A stretch of DNA of 64,000 bases from NCBI RefSeq assembly GCF_003387475.1, contig NZ_QUNO01000003.1, forward strand, positions 372,001 through 436,000. Reading direction: 5' to 3'. This stretch comes from Kutzneria buriramensis (GTDB lineage Bacteria > Actinomycetota > Actinomycetes > Mycobacteriales > Pseudonocardiaceae). The notes under the pieces were generated by a model. That model saw only the letters and a list, made by a program, of their open reading frames with translations. It had not been told where the DNA came from and did not search any database. Both the position numbers and the translations under genes were made by a program. Positions 23,665 through 28,253 of this stretch are shown here, piece by piece; positions within the stretch are counted from its first letter, which is position 1; the number at the start of each line of letters is the position of its first letter.

Positions 23665-23720
23665 GCTTTCCAGGCTCCCGCATGCCGGTCTCCCCGCCAC
23701 ACCCGCACTGGCCTCCGGGC

Positions 23721-24077
23721 CCAATGCCTTCCCGACGGTGCGCCCCACACACCTTCCGACCCAACGCCTTCCCGACGGTGCGCCCCACACACCTTCCGAC
23801 CCAACGCCTTCCCGACGGGCGTGTCCGGTCACCCTCCAGCCGTCACTCCTTGCGCATTTCGGCACCCCAGACACCCTCGGCCCAACGCCTGGCCGCCTGC
23901 GCATCCCACACAGCATCCGGCCCAACGCCTCTCACCGGTGCGGCCCACACCTCGCGGCGCAACGCCTTCCGCCAGTGCGCCTCACGAATCTTCGGGCCTA
24001 ATGCCTTCCGACCAGTGCGCCCCGCGCACGTTCCGGCACAACGCCTTCCCGCCGGCGTGCCTGGTCACCTTCCGGCC
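23721..24077. repeat. Degenerate 40-bp tandem repeat array downstream of padR
   Basis: Units beginning CCAACGCCTT (or close variants) start at 23721, 23761, 23801, 23882, 23922, 23959, 23998 and 24038, mostly 37-40 bp apart. The first two units differ by one base. The 81-bp step after 23801 holds a near copy of the padR 3' end: read leftward, 23869-23843 encodes WGAEMRKE-stop, against WGAEMREE-stop in padR. It lies between convergent genes. Open frames cross it, but I see no gene. Confidence 0.85.
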
Positions 24078-24651: not shown

Positions 24652-24691
24652 CCGCCGCCTCCCAACCCTCGACCCAACCGCACTCACCGCC

Positions 24692-24843
24692 CAGTTCGCT
24701 GGCGACCGCCTAGCCGGCCGACAACCGCCCAGCCCGCCGACAACCGCCCAGCCCGCCGGCGACAGCCCAGCCCACCGGCGGGTGCCTAGCCCGTCGGCGA
24801 CCGTCTAGCCCGCTGACGGGTGCGCAGCCCGCTGGCCGCCGCG
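24692..24843. repeat. Degenerate 19-bp tandem repeat, eight units
   Basis: Eight successive 19-bp units of the type CAGCCCGCCGACAACCGCC start at 24692, 24711, 24730, 24749, 24768, 24787, 24806 and 24825, each differing by a few bases. They begin 40 bp upstream of padR and so occupy its promoter region. Confidence 0.85.
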
Positions 24844-24901: not shown

Positions 24902-24999
24902 GCCACCGGCCACCAGCCACCAGCCACCAGCCACCAGCCACCAGCCACCAGCCACCAGCCACCAGCCACCAGCCACCAGCCACCAGCCACCAGCCACCA
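24902..24999. repeat. 7-bp microsatellite, GCCACCA x13
   Basis: One GCCACCG unit (24902-24908) is followed by thirteen perfect GCCACCA units (24909-24999). Such an array is likely to change length by slippage. It lies in the gap between padR and the divergent NTF2-fold gene, about 250 bp upstream of padR and 107 bp upstream of the NTF2 gene. It could be coding only in shadow frames, and I call no gene here. Confidence 0.95.
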
Positions 25000-25046
25000 G
25001 CCAAGACATCCTTGACCGCGGCCCCCACCCTAGGCAAGACTGCGAT

Positions 25047-25105: not shown

Positions 25106-25591
25106 GTGTCCACCACCTCAGAAGCGGTCGAGACGCACGACGACAGCCCGGCGGCACGGACCGTCGCCCGCTTGCACGACGCCGTCCTACAGCGGGACCA
25201 CGCGGCGATCGTCGGCCTGTTCCGCGACGACATCGTGTTCCACAGCCCGGTGAAGTTCCGCCCGTTCGAGGGCATCGCGACGGTAGGCGCGCTGTTCGCG
25301 GTGCTGCTGCGCACGTTCGAGGACTTCAGCTACGTCGGCAACCTGTCCGGCGACGTCGAGGGCGACGCCGGCTCGCGCGTGCTGGTGTTCCGCGCCCGGG
25401 TCGGCGACAAGCAGATCCACGGCATCGACATGCTCCAGTTCGACGACGAGGGCCGCATCGCCACCTTCACGGTCATGGTGCGACCGCAGTCCGCGGCGGC
25501 CGCGCTCAGCGAGGCCGTGTTCGCGGGCCTGGTCGCCGACGGCGTCGTGCCGGCTCCGGGCGCCGACGCCCCGGCGGGAGGTCAGCGATGA
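25106..25591 (+). CDS. SnoaL/NTF2-like protein
   Basis: A 161-residue NTF2-fold protein. The N-terminal helix ARTVARLHDAVLQRDHAAIV leads into the strand pair LFRDDIVFHSPVKFRPFEG; later strands include VLVFRARVGDKQIHGIDMLQ and IATFTVMVRP. The fold binds small molecules in a pocket; a reaction cannot be given. The GTG at 25106 is used because GGAGG lies six bases upstream; an ATG at 25058 lies inside the palindrome and has no site. It overlaps the F420-type oxidoreductase gene by ATGA, so the two are coupled and probably act together. Confidence 0.83.
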   Translation: MSTTSEAVETHDDSPAARTVARLHDAVLQRDHAAIVGLFRDDIVFHSPVKFRPFEGIATVGALFAVLLRTFEDFSYVGNLSGDVEGDAGSRVLVFRARVGDKQIHGIDMLQFDDEGRIATFTVMVRPQSAAAALSEAVFAGLVADGVVPAPGADAPAGGQR

Positions 25592-26610
25592 AGCTCGGGT
25601 ATCACACCGGCTACTGGTCGTCGGGGCCGCCGGCCGGCGTCGCCGAGGCCGTTATCGAGGCGGACCGCCTCGGCTTCGACTCGGTGTGGACCGCCGAGGC
25701 CTACGGCTCCGACGCGCTCACCCCGCTGGCCTGGTGGGGGGCCGCGACCAGCCAGATCAAGCTGGCCACCAACATCATGCAGATGTCGGCCCGCACCCCG
25801 GCCGCGGCCGGCATGGCCGCGCTCACCCTGGACCACCTGTCCGGCGGGCGGTTCGTGCTCGGCCTCGGCGCGTCCGGACCGCAGGTGGTGGAGGGCTGGT
25901 ACGGCCAGCCCTACCCGCGCCCGCTGGCGCGCACCCGCGAGTACATCGACATCGTCCGCAAGGTCGTCGCCCGCGAGACCGTCGAGCACCAGGGCGAGTT
26001 CTTCCAGCTGCCCTATCCCGGCGGCGCCGGCCTCGGCAAGCCGCTCAAGTCGACCGTGCACCCGCTGCGCGCCGAGATCCCGATCTTCCTCGCCGCCGAG
26101 GGCCCGAAGAACGTGGCCCTGGCCGCCGAGATCGCCGACGGCTGGCTGCCGCTGTTCTACTCGCCCAAGGTGGACGGCTTCTTCCGGGCCGCCCTCGCCG
26201 AGGGCTTCGCCCGCCCCGGCGCCCGCCACACCCTCGACGACTTCGAGGTCGCCGCCAGCGTGCCGGTGCTGGTGCACGACGACGTCGAGCAGGCCGCGGA
26301 CTTCATCCGCCCCATGCTCGCCCTCTACATCGGCGGCATGGGTGCGAAGGGCGCCAACTTCCACCGGGACGCCATCGCCCGGCTCGGCTACGAGGCCGAG
26401 TGCGACCGGATCCAGGACCTCTACCTGGCCGGCGACAAGAAGTCGGCGATCGCCGCCGTGCCCACCAGGATGGTCGAGGACCTGGCGCTGATCGGCCCCG
26501 CGGCCAAGATCCGTGACGAACTGCCGGCCTGGGAGGAGACCGTGATCACGACCTTGCTGGTGCAGGGCAACGCGACCGCCTTGCGCAAGGTCGCCGAGCT
26601 GTTCTCCTGA
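25588..26610 (+). CDS. LLM class F420-dependent oxidoreductase
   Basis: A 340-residue luciferase-like monooxygenase-fold protein (TIM barrel). The N-terminus MKLGYHTGYW with AVIEADRLGFDSVWTAEAYG, the conserved TLDHLSGGRFVLGLGASGPQ loop and the LAAEGPKNVALAAEIADGWL segment mark the group that uses deazaflavin F420, abundant in actinomycetes. It is close to the Rv3520c-like family by pattern. The substrate is unknown. Translation is coupled to the preceding NTF2-fold gene (ATGA). A terminator hairpin and then the array of structured modules follow. Confidence 0.9.
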   Translation: MKLGYHTGYWSSGPPAGVAEAVIEADRLGFDSVWTAEAYGSDALTPLAWWGAATSQIKLATNIMQMSARTPAAAGMAALTLDHLSGGRFVLGLGASGPQVVEGWYGQPYPRPLARTREYIDIVRKVVARETVEHQGEFFQLPYPGGAGLGKPLKSTVHPLRAEIPIFLAAEGPKNVALAAEIADGWLPLFYSPKVDGFFRAALAEGFARPGARHTLDDFEVAASVPVLVHDDVEQAADFIRPMLALYIGGMGAKGANFHRDAIARLGYEAECDRIQDLYLAGDKKSAIAAVPTRMVEDLALIGPAAKIRDELPAWEETVITTLLVQGNATALRKVAELFS

Positions 26611-26641
26611 CGCACCACCACCTTTGCTTCGAGGTACCTGC

Positions 26642-26672
26642 CCGGGGCCCGTCCACGTCGGACGGCCCCCGG
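26642..26672 (+). terminator. Terminator after the F420-type oxidoreductase
   Basis: Thirteen-base arms CCGGGGCCCGTCC and GGACGGCCCCCGG with one mismatch and a five-base loop, 31 bp after the stop. Confidence 0.7.
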
Positions 26673-26705
26673 CTCGTCTCCACCCGGGGAAAGCGGTGGC
26701 GACAC

Positions 26706-26763
26706 CCGGCCGGGCGGCCGGTCCCGGATTCCGTGGTCGACACACGGGCCCGGTGGTCAGGTG
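26706..26763. repeat. Partial structured module (module 0)
   Basis: Two stems equivalent to the last two of the modules that follow: CCGGCC / GGCCGG (26706-26711 with 26716-26721) and CCGTG / CACGG (26731-26735 with 26743-26747). The first two stems are absent, so this may be a decayed copy. Confidence 0.5.
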
Positions 26764-26922
26764 GTGGGGATCCCGGCCCACTGATTCCCGGGATCCCCAC
26801 CGGCTCCGAACCGCATCGCCGGCAGGGGGTCACCGGCGACCCGCGGGCTCGGAGCGCTTCTGCCGGTGGAGCAAACCGGCAGAAGCCGTTGTGGGCGGCC
26901 GAATTTCGGCACGAGGTGAGAT
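26764..26922. repeat. Multi-hairpin module 1 of a tandem array
   Basis: Ordered stems: A, GTGGGGATCCCGG (26764-26776) with CCGGGATCCCCAC (26788-26800); B, GCTCCGA (26803-26809) with TCGGAGC (26849-26855), enclosing CGCCGG / CCGGCG; C, a perfect 12-bp stem GCTTCTGCCGGT / ACCGGCAGAAGC (26856-26867 with 26875-26886); D, GCCGAA / TTCGGC (26898-26903 with 26905-26910). The same order recurs in modules 2 and 3. Confidence 0.8.
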
Positions 26923-27093
26923 GGCGGGGATCCCGTGCCCCACCGAGTGACGGGATCCCCGCCCGCCCCGATGCCCTGACGCGCCGGCGAAGGGGTTAGC
27001 CGGCGGTCACGGACTCGGGGCCGCATCTGCCGGTTCGCCGATCCGGCAGAGTGGCATTCACGGGTGAGCACCGCTCACCGTTGGTCGCTGTGG
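26923..27093. repeat. Multi-hairpin module 2 of a tandem array
   Basis: Stem A, GGCGGGGATCCCGT (26923-26936) with ACGGGATCCCCGCC (26950-26963). Stem B, GCCCCGA (26965-26971) with TCGGGGC (27015-27021), enclosing CGCCGGC / GCCGGCG (26982-26988 with 26999-27005). Stem C, TCTGCCGG / CCGGCAGA (27026-27033 with 27043-27050). Stem D, GGTGAGC / GCTCACC (27063-27069 with 27073-27079). Several positions change on both arms relative to module 1, keeping the pairing. Confidence 0.8.
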
Positions 27094-27233
27094 GGCCGGG
27101 ACCCGCGCGGCGGGTGGGCGGGTCCCGGCCTGCCCCGGGCCGTTCGCGGCGACGGCTGGGAGTCGCGGCGTACGCGGTTCGGGGCGGCGCCTGCCGGTGC
27201 GCGCGGCCGGCAGGAGGCGTACAGGATCAGGCG
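27094..27233. repeat. Multi-hairpin module 3 of a tandem array
   Basis: Stem A, GGCCGGGACCCGC (27094-27106) with GCGGGTCCCGGCC (27118-27130). Stem B, GCCCCG / CGGGGC (27132-27137 with 27180-27185), enclosing GCGAC / GTCGC (27149-27153 with 27162-27166). Stem C, CCTGCCGG / CCGGCAGG (27190-27197 with 27207-27214). No clear stem D. The module runs up to the stop of the DUF4192 gene. Confidence 0.75.
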
Positions 27234-28253
27234 TCAGCCGGGCATCTTGGTCTCCTCCTCGATCTCGATGCGGGCGTCGGCCGCGGCGTCGGCGAGGACC
27301 TGCCGAATCTGATCCCGCGGCAGTCCGTAGTCCAGGGCGCCGCGCAACATGCCGGCGAGGTTGTGCACGGGCAGCGCGACCTGTGCGTGCTCCAGGGCGA
27401 CATTGGCCATGGCGCCGTCGCCGTGGACATACCTCGACACGGCAAGCAGAACGGCGGCCTCGGCACGTTCGGGCGGGGGCAGGCAACGGGTGAGTTCGAG
27501 CCACAGCTTCTCCGCGACGGCAGAGAGTTGGCGGTCGAGGACGAAGGCGAGGCAGGCGTCGCGAACCCGGTAGTCGGCCAGGGCCATGGCGAGCCGGACC
27601 AGCTCTTCGTCGGTGGTGGGCAACGCGCCGGCGGTGACGGCGGCGGACATGGTGGCGAGGTGCTCCGACGCGGGCGTTTCGTCGCAGCGGATGGCGGCGT
27701 CGAGCAGGCCGCTGAGCCGGATCATGCGCTGGGTGTCGACGGGTTCCAGCATGCGGACCAGATCGTCGCGGCTGCCGTAGGTGACGGCGCCGGCGTAGGT
27801 CATCACCGCGGCGAGTTCGGTGGCCGACTGCTCGGGCACCTCGCCCGCGCAGTCCTCGTGCAGGAAGCAGTGCCAGGGCACGCCGCCGGCGGTCGATGGC
27901 GTCCACAGGGCGTGCACGATCGACAGGCCCACGCCCTCCAGAGCGGCGACGGTCCGCAGTGCCAGGTCCTTGTGCTCCGGTTTGGCCTCGGCGCACACGA
28001 CCACGGGCACGGCGGCGACCGCCTCGACCTGCTGCATGGGTCTGACCAGGCGGCCGACGAGCGCGGCGTGCAACGGGGGCGGTCCCAGGTCGGACCGGGT
28101 GGTGAGGCCGATCAGGCCACTGCTCTTGATCGCCAACACGACGAGCGAGTCGACCGGGTGGAAGCCCATCAGCGACGGGATCGCGGCGATGAGCGCGCCG
28201 GCGTCGTTGAGCTTGACCGTCCGGTGCGGGGTGGGGTGTGCGGCGGTGTCCAT
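27234..28253 (-). CDS. DUF4192 domain protein
   Basis: A 339-residue soluble protein of the actinobacterial DUF4192 family, recognisable from the N-terminal pattern LIAAIPSLMGFHPVDSLVVL, then MTYAGAVTYGSRDDLVRMLE and a helical C-terminal half ending ADARIEIEEETKMPG. The function of the family is not known. There is no catalytic motif I can name. The gene converges on the F420-type oxidoreductase across the structured repeat array. Its upstream region carries two inverted DnaA-box-like 9-mers 53-78 bp from the start, which may link expression to DnaA or another regulator using that site. Confidence 0.85.
   Translation of the reverse strand: MDTAAHPTPHRTVKLNDAGALIAAIPSLMGFHPVDSLVVLAIKSSGLIGLTTRSDLGPPPLHAALVGRLVRPMQQVEAVAAVPVVVCAEAKPEHKDLALRTVAALEGVGLSIVHALWTPSTAGGVPWHCFLHEDCAGEVPEQSATELAAVMTYAGAVTYGSRDDLVRMLEPVDTQRMIRLSGLLDAAIRCDETPASEHLATMSAAVTAGALPTTDEELVRLAMALADYRVRDACLAFVLDRQLSAVAEKLWLELTRCLPPPERAEAAVLLAVSRYVHGDGAMANVALEHAQVALPVHNLAGMLRGALDYGLPRDQIRQVLADAAADARIEIEEETKMPG

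Follow-up and report, generated by a model that had tools for sequence, protein, structure and literature searches.

A tandem array of multi-hairpin modules downstream of a DUF4192 gene in Kutzneria: a candidate structured RNA

The window, a stretch of 64,000 nucleotides of the Kutzneria buriramensis genome (G000; positions are those of the window unless a contig is given), carries a luciferase-like gene and a convergent gene for a DUF4192 protein, and three multi-hairpin modules lie in tandem between them. The features of this locus are as follows.

25588..26610, plus strand: luciferase-like gene (Bac_luciferase; Pfam PF00296, E 4.6e-72), convergent with the DUF4192 gene
26641..26672, plus strand: hairpin CCCGGGGCCCGTCC / GGACGGCCCCCGG, directly after the luciferase-like gene and outside the modules
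26762..26920 (159 bp), minus strand: module 1 (m1 type), with the order 5' part, C', B', A' on the minus strand
26763..26801: stem A of module 1, GGTGGGGATCCCGG / CCGGGATCCCCACC
26803..26855: stem B of module 1, outer GCTCCGA / TCGGAGC, inner TCGCCGG / CCGGCGA at 26816-26839
26856..26886: stem C of module 1, GCTTCTGCCGGT / ACCGGCAGAAGC
26921..27079 (159 bp), minus strand: module 2, internal and adjoining the terminal module (model R3, 110.9 bits; tree)
26923..26963: stem A of module 2, GGCGGGGATCCCGT / ACGGGATCCCCGCC
26965..27021: stem B of module 2, outer GCCCCGA / TCGGGGC, inner CGCCGGC / GCCGGCG at 26982-27005
27026..27050: stem C of module 2, TCTGCCGG / CCGGCAGA
27063..27079: short hairpin GGTGAGC / GCTCACC, clear in module 2 only
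27089..27219 (131 bp): terminal module (mT), adjoining the DUF4192 stop, with stem A at about 27093-27131, stem B at about 27132-27185 and stem C at about 27190-27214
27234..28253, minus strand: DUF4192 protein gene (Pfam PF13830, E 2.7e-66), its 3' end abutting the terminal module

The plus-strand order of stems is the same in all three modules, namely a long stem A, a two-tier stem B and a stem C built on CTGCCGG/CCGGCAG. Stem A is a perfect inverted repeat of 14 bp in modules 1 and 2 and of 13 bp in the terminal module. The stem B loop, read on the minus strand, contains ACCCCC in module 1 and is UAACCCCUUC in module 2. Module 1 is matched by model R3 with 119.8 bits (G000:C3:398760-398926), and the distance from the DUF4192 stop to the CTGCCGG of stem C in the terminal module is 20 nt. 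A reading of the letters without database searches (the sequence-only reading) had described a tandem hairpin array with modules of about 159, 171 and 140 bp, a partial fourth module before them and a short stem D, unclear in the third module. The three consecutive modules with A, B enclosing an inner B, and C are present at 26762-26920, 26921-27079 and 27089-27219, with lengths of 159, 159 and 131 bp as cut here. The paired changes that it had pointed out are also present: GCTCCGA/TCGGAGC in module 1 corresponds to GCCCCGA/TCGGGGC in module 2, and CTTCTGCCGG/CCGGCAGAAG in module 1 to CCTGCCGG/CCGGCAGG in the terminal module. The partial fourth module, placed at 26706-26755, is not supported: the sole model match listed there runs over 26697-26804 on the reverse strand, is weak (28.6 bits, E 0.0013) and overlaps the palindrome of module 1. 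Stem D, the short hairpin of module 2, is not kept as a stem; at its position the relatives G001, G002, G005 and G006 carry a mostly unpaired sequence motif, which is absent from G000. Tandem Repeats Finder (score >=50) has no entry at the array, and a tandem repeat defined by sequence only is therefore rejected.

The array sits between convergent genes as the sequence-only reading had stated, but it does not fill the whole gap, since the first 150 bp or so past the luciferase-like gene consist of a conserved hairpin and a spacer outside the array. A perfect 13-14 bp version of this hairpin is found at the same position in G002, G005 and G006, and the hairpin at 26641..26672 is probably the luciferase-like gene's own terminator.

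An array at the same locus, flanked by convergent luciferase-like and DUF4192 genes, occurs in five of the seven Kutzneria genomes examined, and the number of modules differs among them. G002 has two intact internal modules and one degenerate internal module, G005 has four internal modules, G006 (Kutzneria sp. CA-103260) has one internal and one degenerate module, and G001 has one readable internal module, part of its array reading N; a terminal module follows in each. When degenerate copies are counted, the four fully readable arrays contain two to four internal modules. The array is absent from G003, a Kutzneria MAG in which the gap between the luciferase-like and DUF4192 genes is only 39 bp, and the gap of about 1.5 kb between both genes in G004 (K. 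viridogrisea DSM 43850) has no match to any model. A DNA search with the gap in 60 genomes, own genome included, gave matches at E <=1e-3 in 23 genomes, five of which are Kutzneria including the own genome. The strong matches are at the same locus in G001, G002, G005 and G006 (best E 1e-38 to 8e-28), and in the 18 genomes from other genera the matches do not go beyond short, weak stretches (E no better than 3.9e-6). Among the best 80 of 563 candidate related luciferase-like loci, the luciferase-like and DUF4192 genes are adjacent in three, all of them in Kutzneria.

The restriction to Kutzneria within the wider family is based on model R1, built on nine internal modules, and model R2, built on the terminal module. 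R1 matched six of 100 genomes, own genome included, namely the five array-bearing Kutzneria genomes and G063 at E 0.029, and R2 matched five of 297 family genomes, own genome included, all of them Kutzneria. No convincing module copy was found outside Kutzneria in the 100 genomes searched with R1 or the 297 searched with R2, where a diverged copy could be missed because the filters of both models were strict and only 34 and 11 candidates, respectively, were scored per genome. In the own genome, all four R1 matches lie at the array, and the R3 matches lie at the array except for one weak match on contig C4 (E 0.12), with 150 of 21267 and 150 of 36582 first-look candidates scored in the R1 and R3 searches, respectively. 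The stem A pattern GGGATCCC-N3..24-GGGATCCC occurs at three places in the 12 Mb own genome, two of which are inside the array. Further weak model matches are those at G003:C65 (L146), at G005:C1:8201248 (E 0.10), at G001:C1:11596726, where nothing module-like is seen by eye, and at G003:C143, which is a lone hairpin. The latter (L144, 256-290) is a stem-A-like hairpin, CAGGGATCCCGCCA / TGGCGGGATCCCTG, which appears to lie between genes in the Kutzneria MAG.

In agreement with the sequence-only reading, which recognised no matching named family, comparison with Rfam (4227 families) gave no match at gathering score across the window and none with E <=1 on the two strands of 26600-27260, so that a known RNA family is rejected. 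Phage or plasmid relatives are likewise rejected, since blastn against phage and plasmid collections gave no match at E <=1e-3. Among the matches listed in open-licence literature on Kutzneria, DUF4192, convergent-gene palindromes and tandem structured RNAs, the titles and abstract openings describe no such array.

On both strands, the 623-nt gap has a better fold than any of 20 dinucleotide shuffles (z -8.45 on plus and -15.38 on minus), and so has every one of the three window modules when compared with 100 shuffles of its own sequence. The mean fold z of the internal modules (n = 11) is -4.21 on the minus strand and -3.43 on the plus strand; these means include G006m1 and G001mx on both strands, G005m2 on the plus strand and, to a lesser degree, G006m2 on the plus strand, which are not clearly better than shuffles. 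In the minus-strand model alignment of ten internal modules, 93.6% of 359 cells are paired, and 12 of 37 pairs are changed on both sides, with 24 double-changed cells and a covariation score of 0.309. None of 500 shuffles reaches the paired percentage, the double-changed pairs, the double-changed cells or the covariation score, while the 32 further pair types are reached by 76 of 500 shuffles and so show no excess; slid structures pair only 34-49% of this alignment. These figures lean in favour of the structure because the alignment was fitted to it and the rows are related. In a plus-strand MAFFT alignment of nine modules, 82.1% of cells pair and the covariation score is 0.161, values reached by 1 and 0 of 500 shuffles, respectively. 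This alignment has nine double-changed pairs, 18 double-changed cells and 17 further pair types, numbers that 36, 1 and 301 of the 500 shuffles attain as well. The tree and alignments A2, A5 and A7 do not include G006m1, and A2 does not include G001mx either. Covarying pairs beyond shuffle chance are thus found among homologues, in ten related modules and a structure-fitted alignment, and selection on pairing, as proposed in the sequence-only reading, is supported by the congeneric genomes, where pairing is kept and double changes exceed those of shuffles. What the compared sequences show directly is the modules themselves, their retention at a single locus in five genomes and the preservation of pairing.

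Minimum-energy folds of the minus strand contain C', the two-tier B' and A' together in seven of the 11 internal modules (G000m1, G000m2, G002m1, G005m1, G005m3, G005m4 and G006m2). Departures from this fold are seen in places in G002m2, G005m2 and the degenerate G006m1, and one arm of A is missing from the readable sequence of G001mx. The inner loop of B' contains CCCC in nine of ten modules and CCCCYU in eight of ten, and its mean majority is 0.78, compared with 0.57-0.70 in other unpaired stretches; the host genome is G+C-rich, so that C-rich loops are not rare there. A conserved, mostly unpaired stretch, TCCTCGGATCGC, lies upstream of C' on the minus strand in G001, G002, G005 and G006 and is absent from the modules of G000. 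This stretch may possibly be a promoter or a protein site.

In a midpoint-rooted tree of 15 modules, the terminal modules stand apart from the others (support 100/99), with G006m2 as their neighbour (93/93). G002m2, G005m4 and G001mx form one group (87/92) with G000m2 nearby, and these modules adjoin the terminal module as far as the arrays are intact and readable. Another group contains G000m1, G002m1 and G005m1-3 (85/93). Two of the 12 inner branches have strong support and seven have weak support. Since the tree groups modules by kind and position, with extra copies in G005, the order of module kinds probably predates these species. Presumed internal orthologues are 59-76% identical. The terminal modules show a mean identity of 86.0% over ungapped columns (81.9% when gaps are counted), versus 73.1% for the DUF4192 coding sequence and 66.5% for its third positions, and the terminal module is more alike than the DUF4192 gene in all ten genome pairs. 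Stem C of the terminal module starts 13-20 nt past the DUF4192 stop in four of the five genomes; the exception is G006, in which the DUF4192 reading frame ends 253 nt before this stem. Even so, letters resembling a relative's C-terminal tail adjoin the terminal module in G006 (L029/L032).

An A.C cell on one strand corresponds to a G.U pair on the opposite strand, and the off-pair cells consequently bear on the strand of a putative RNA. The fixed columns of the plus-strand model in ten modules contain 299 Watson-Crick, 35 A.C, 4 G.T and 15 other cells. This count covers rows 1-9 and 11 of 23 model matches; the 13 left out are ten reverse-strand matches, the degenerate G006m1 (2 A.C, 0 G.T) and two terminal modules (1 G.T each). 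In terms of distinct off-pair changes, there are 20 A.C and 4 G.T. The A.C excess gives P = 5.5e-5 for cells and 0.015 for distinct changes against a null that allows for the A:T skew of unpaired columns, and P = 5.6e-4 for cells and a marginal 0.048 for distinct changes against a null of random re-pairing. The plus strand has more A than T, and random re-pairing alone leads to 66% A.C, the observed share being reached by 13 of 2000 random re-pairings; structures slid by +1 to +4 likewise show more A.C than G.T, and those slid the opposite way show fewer. The off-pair strand bias is therefore partly compositional. Hand-picked stems give 322 Watson-Crick, 23 A.C, 3 G.T and 1 other, and the fixed-column count is preferred because the hand-picking came after the trend had been noticed. 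All 11 internal modules have their lower minimum free energy on the minus strand, and in the fold test, which controls for composition, z is more negative on the minus strand in eight of the 11 (Wilcoxon P 0.042). The strand signals of the terminal module conflict with each other: its hand-picked stems have eight G.T and no A.C on the plus strand, and in five of five genomes the plus strand also gives it the lower free energy, whereas z is more negative on the minus strand in four of five.

The minus strand is thus supported but not proven, and it is likely that a putative RNA of the internal modules is read from this strand, in the direction of DUF4192. The sequence-only reading had offered a structured RNA, a BIME-like palindromic cluster and a cruciform protein site. 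Of these three, the structured RNA is favoured, because a one-strand lean of off-pair cells is unexpected for a cruciform or a double-stranded protein site, and the BIME/REP reading fails because the module is found at one place in its own genome. As judged from the compared sequences, the array is real, selected and locus-specific, and it is most likely an RNA of the DUF4192 strand. Its absence from two of the seven Kutzneria genomes counts against a reading as RNA, as does the scan of 26500-27400, in which neither a sigma-70-like promoter nor a U-tract terminator turned up.

These observations lead to a tentative proposal, to which we give somewhat less than an even chance, that the array consists of tandem structured RNA modules on the minus strand, which would belong to a 3' trailer of DUF4192 or be sibling small RNAs inside this trailer. 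The modules lie downstream of DUF4192 when read in the direction of the gene, and an internal module would fold into a 5' part, hairpin C', the two-tier B' with its C-rich loop and a long, near-perfect A'. Most likely, the DUF4192 transcript would carry the modules as a long, structured 3' trailer, in which the terminal module, placed right after the stop codon, may act as an mRNA 3' barrier or terminator. Further modules would be reached via read-through, or may be excised as sibling small RNAs, and the C-rich loops of such RNAs may pair with G-rich ribosome-binding sites. A structured 3' trailer is the simplest reading because the DUF4192 mRNA must enter the structure and the RNA-like signal lies on the same strand; sibling small RNAs cut from the trailer or started inside it would be the next reading. 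Transcription of the array, its action as trailer or small RNAs and the targets of such RNAs are what we infer from this arrangement. There is also some possibility, though a rather small one, that the modules constitute a Kutzneria-restricted RNA family with a slow anchor module at the DUF4192 3' end, followed by copy-variable, faster-evolving siblings with C-rich seed loops.

Several known systems share features with the array, which is best described as a candidate structured bacterial RNA, perhaps a set of sibling sRNAs, and not as a new kind of system. In Listeria, the copies of LhrC are arranged in tandem. According to PMC9973317, the LhrC family is the largest multicopy sRNA group known and has additive effects; several related units are the feature that the Kutzneria array has in common with the sibling sRNAs LhrC of Listeria and NgncR_162/163 of Neisseria, and several homologous structured units are indeed found at one locus here. 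A typical Kutzneria module differs from these in having three hairpins with long G+C-rich stems. The C-rich loop of the mycobacterial sRNA B11 is reported to pair with guanine tracts next to ribosome-binding sites (PMC12395582), which gives the loop of the Kutzneria modules a working precedent. A C-rich hairpin loop is common to the Kutzneria modules, 6C RNA and B11, while the Kutzneria modules differ in being tandem and in having no Rfam match (E <=1, both strands). The STAXI motif, as described in PMC2864571, is a pseudoknot-based structured unit that occurs near DNA-binding protein genes in two or, more usually, three tandem copies; tandem structured repetition is alike in the two, whereas the Kutzneria array has no Rfam match and lies beside other genes. 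The same source describes the L17 downstream element, which is structured, follows a gene and had its strand assigned by means of G-U pairs. It is associated with the ribosomal protein L17 gene, whereas the array has no Rfam match.

An alternative, possible but rather improbable, is that the internal modules are independent sibling small RNA genes, each with a promoter in its 5' part (TCCTCGGATCGC) and an end at A', like the members of tandem sibling sRNA loci, the DUF4192 mRNA ending separately in the terminal module. The whole unit recurs module after module with the conserved 5' motif in G001, G002, G005 and G006, the long hairpin A' lies at the 3' side on the minus strand, and the modules seem, with moderate support, to persist as separate orthologous lineages. 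However, the motif is absent from G000's own modules, it resembles no recognised promoter type, and its distance to the C stem varies. Neither a sigma-70-like promoter, the consensus of which may fit actinobacteria poorly, nor a U-tract was found in 26500-27400.

It is unlikely that the array is a transcription barrier, in which a run of strong hairpins stops or stalls transcription from either side and yields no specific RNA product. Such a barrier would agree with the location between convergent genes, with the perfect G+C-rich stems A and with the lone A-like hairpin in what seems to be an intergenic region of the related MAG, but a hairpin is already present after the stop of the luciferase-like gene, and a barrier needs neither a two-tier stem B with a conserved loop nor a constant order of stems. 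The terminal module, in addition, evolves more slowly than the adjacent gene. The hairpins are not followed by U-tracts as in an array of intrinsic terminators: a terminator scan of 26500-27400 gave no terminator-like site and no U-tract on either strand.

Less probable still is an element acting at the DNA level, in which the palindromes are bound by a protein or extruded as cruciforms, as in a BIME-like cluster or a topology or recombination site. The perfect inverted repeats of stems A and the tandem clustering are consistent with this, whereas the off-pair cells of the internal modules lean to one strand, which is unexpected for a double-stranded site, and the stem letters drift where a protein site would limit drift. 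A GTAG or CGTC tag at one end characterises REP units. REP and BIME units are described in PMC3733652 as palindromic intergenic units of 20-40 bp that often occur in clusters and downstream of coding regions. The array resembles them in being palindromic, intergenic and clustered, but it occupies one locus, instead of many dispersed genome copies, and its multi-hairpin unit is much longer, 128-170 bp as cut across modules and 242 bp in the degenerate G006m1. A dispersed REP/BIME repeat is accordingly rejected. A decaying repeat with no present function, its hairpins left from its origin, would explain the degenerate modules of G002 and G006 and the two genomes that lack the array, but is very improbable in view of the pair-keeping double changes and the high conservation of the terminal module.

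If the minus-strand modules are RNAs, as preferred here, they would represent a structured-RNA family not described before, from an actinobacterial genus that has received little study, and their differing copy numbers, conserved anchor and drifting siblings would provide a natural series for the way in which tandem regulatory RNAs might originate at a gene's 3' end. In the reading as a Kutzneria-restricted family with seed loops, a gene's 3' trailer would have been turned into a small factory of related regulatory RNAs. Even as a mere barrier between convergent genes, the array would still reflect selection on shape over letters in G+C-rich DNA.

Other repeats lie on the far side of the luciferase-like gene in the window. 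Two adjacent arrays of repeats of about 40 bp (2.5 copies at 98% and 3.5 copies at 71%) occupy 23720-24049, after a gene labelled peptidase-like from reading alone, and a tandem repeat of 19/38 bp with 77%/74% matches is located at 24686-24836. At 24902-25003, ahead of the open frame before the luciferase-like gene, there are 14.6 copies of the 7-bp unit GCCACCA with 98% matches.
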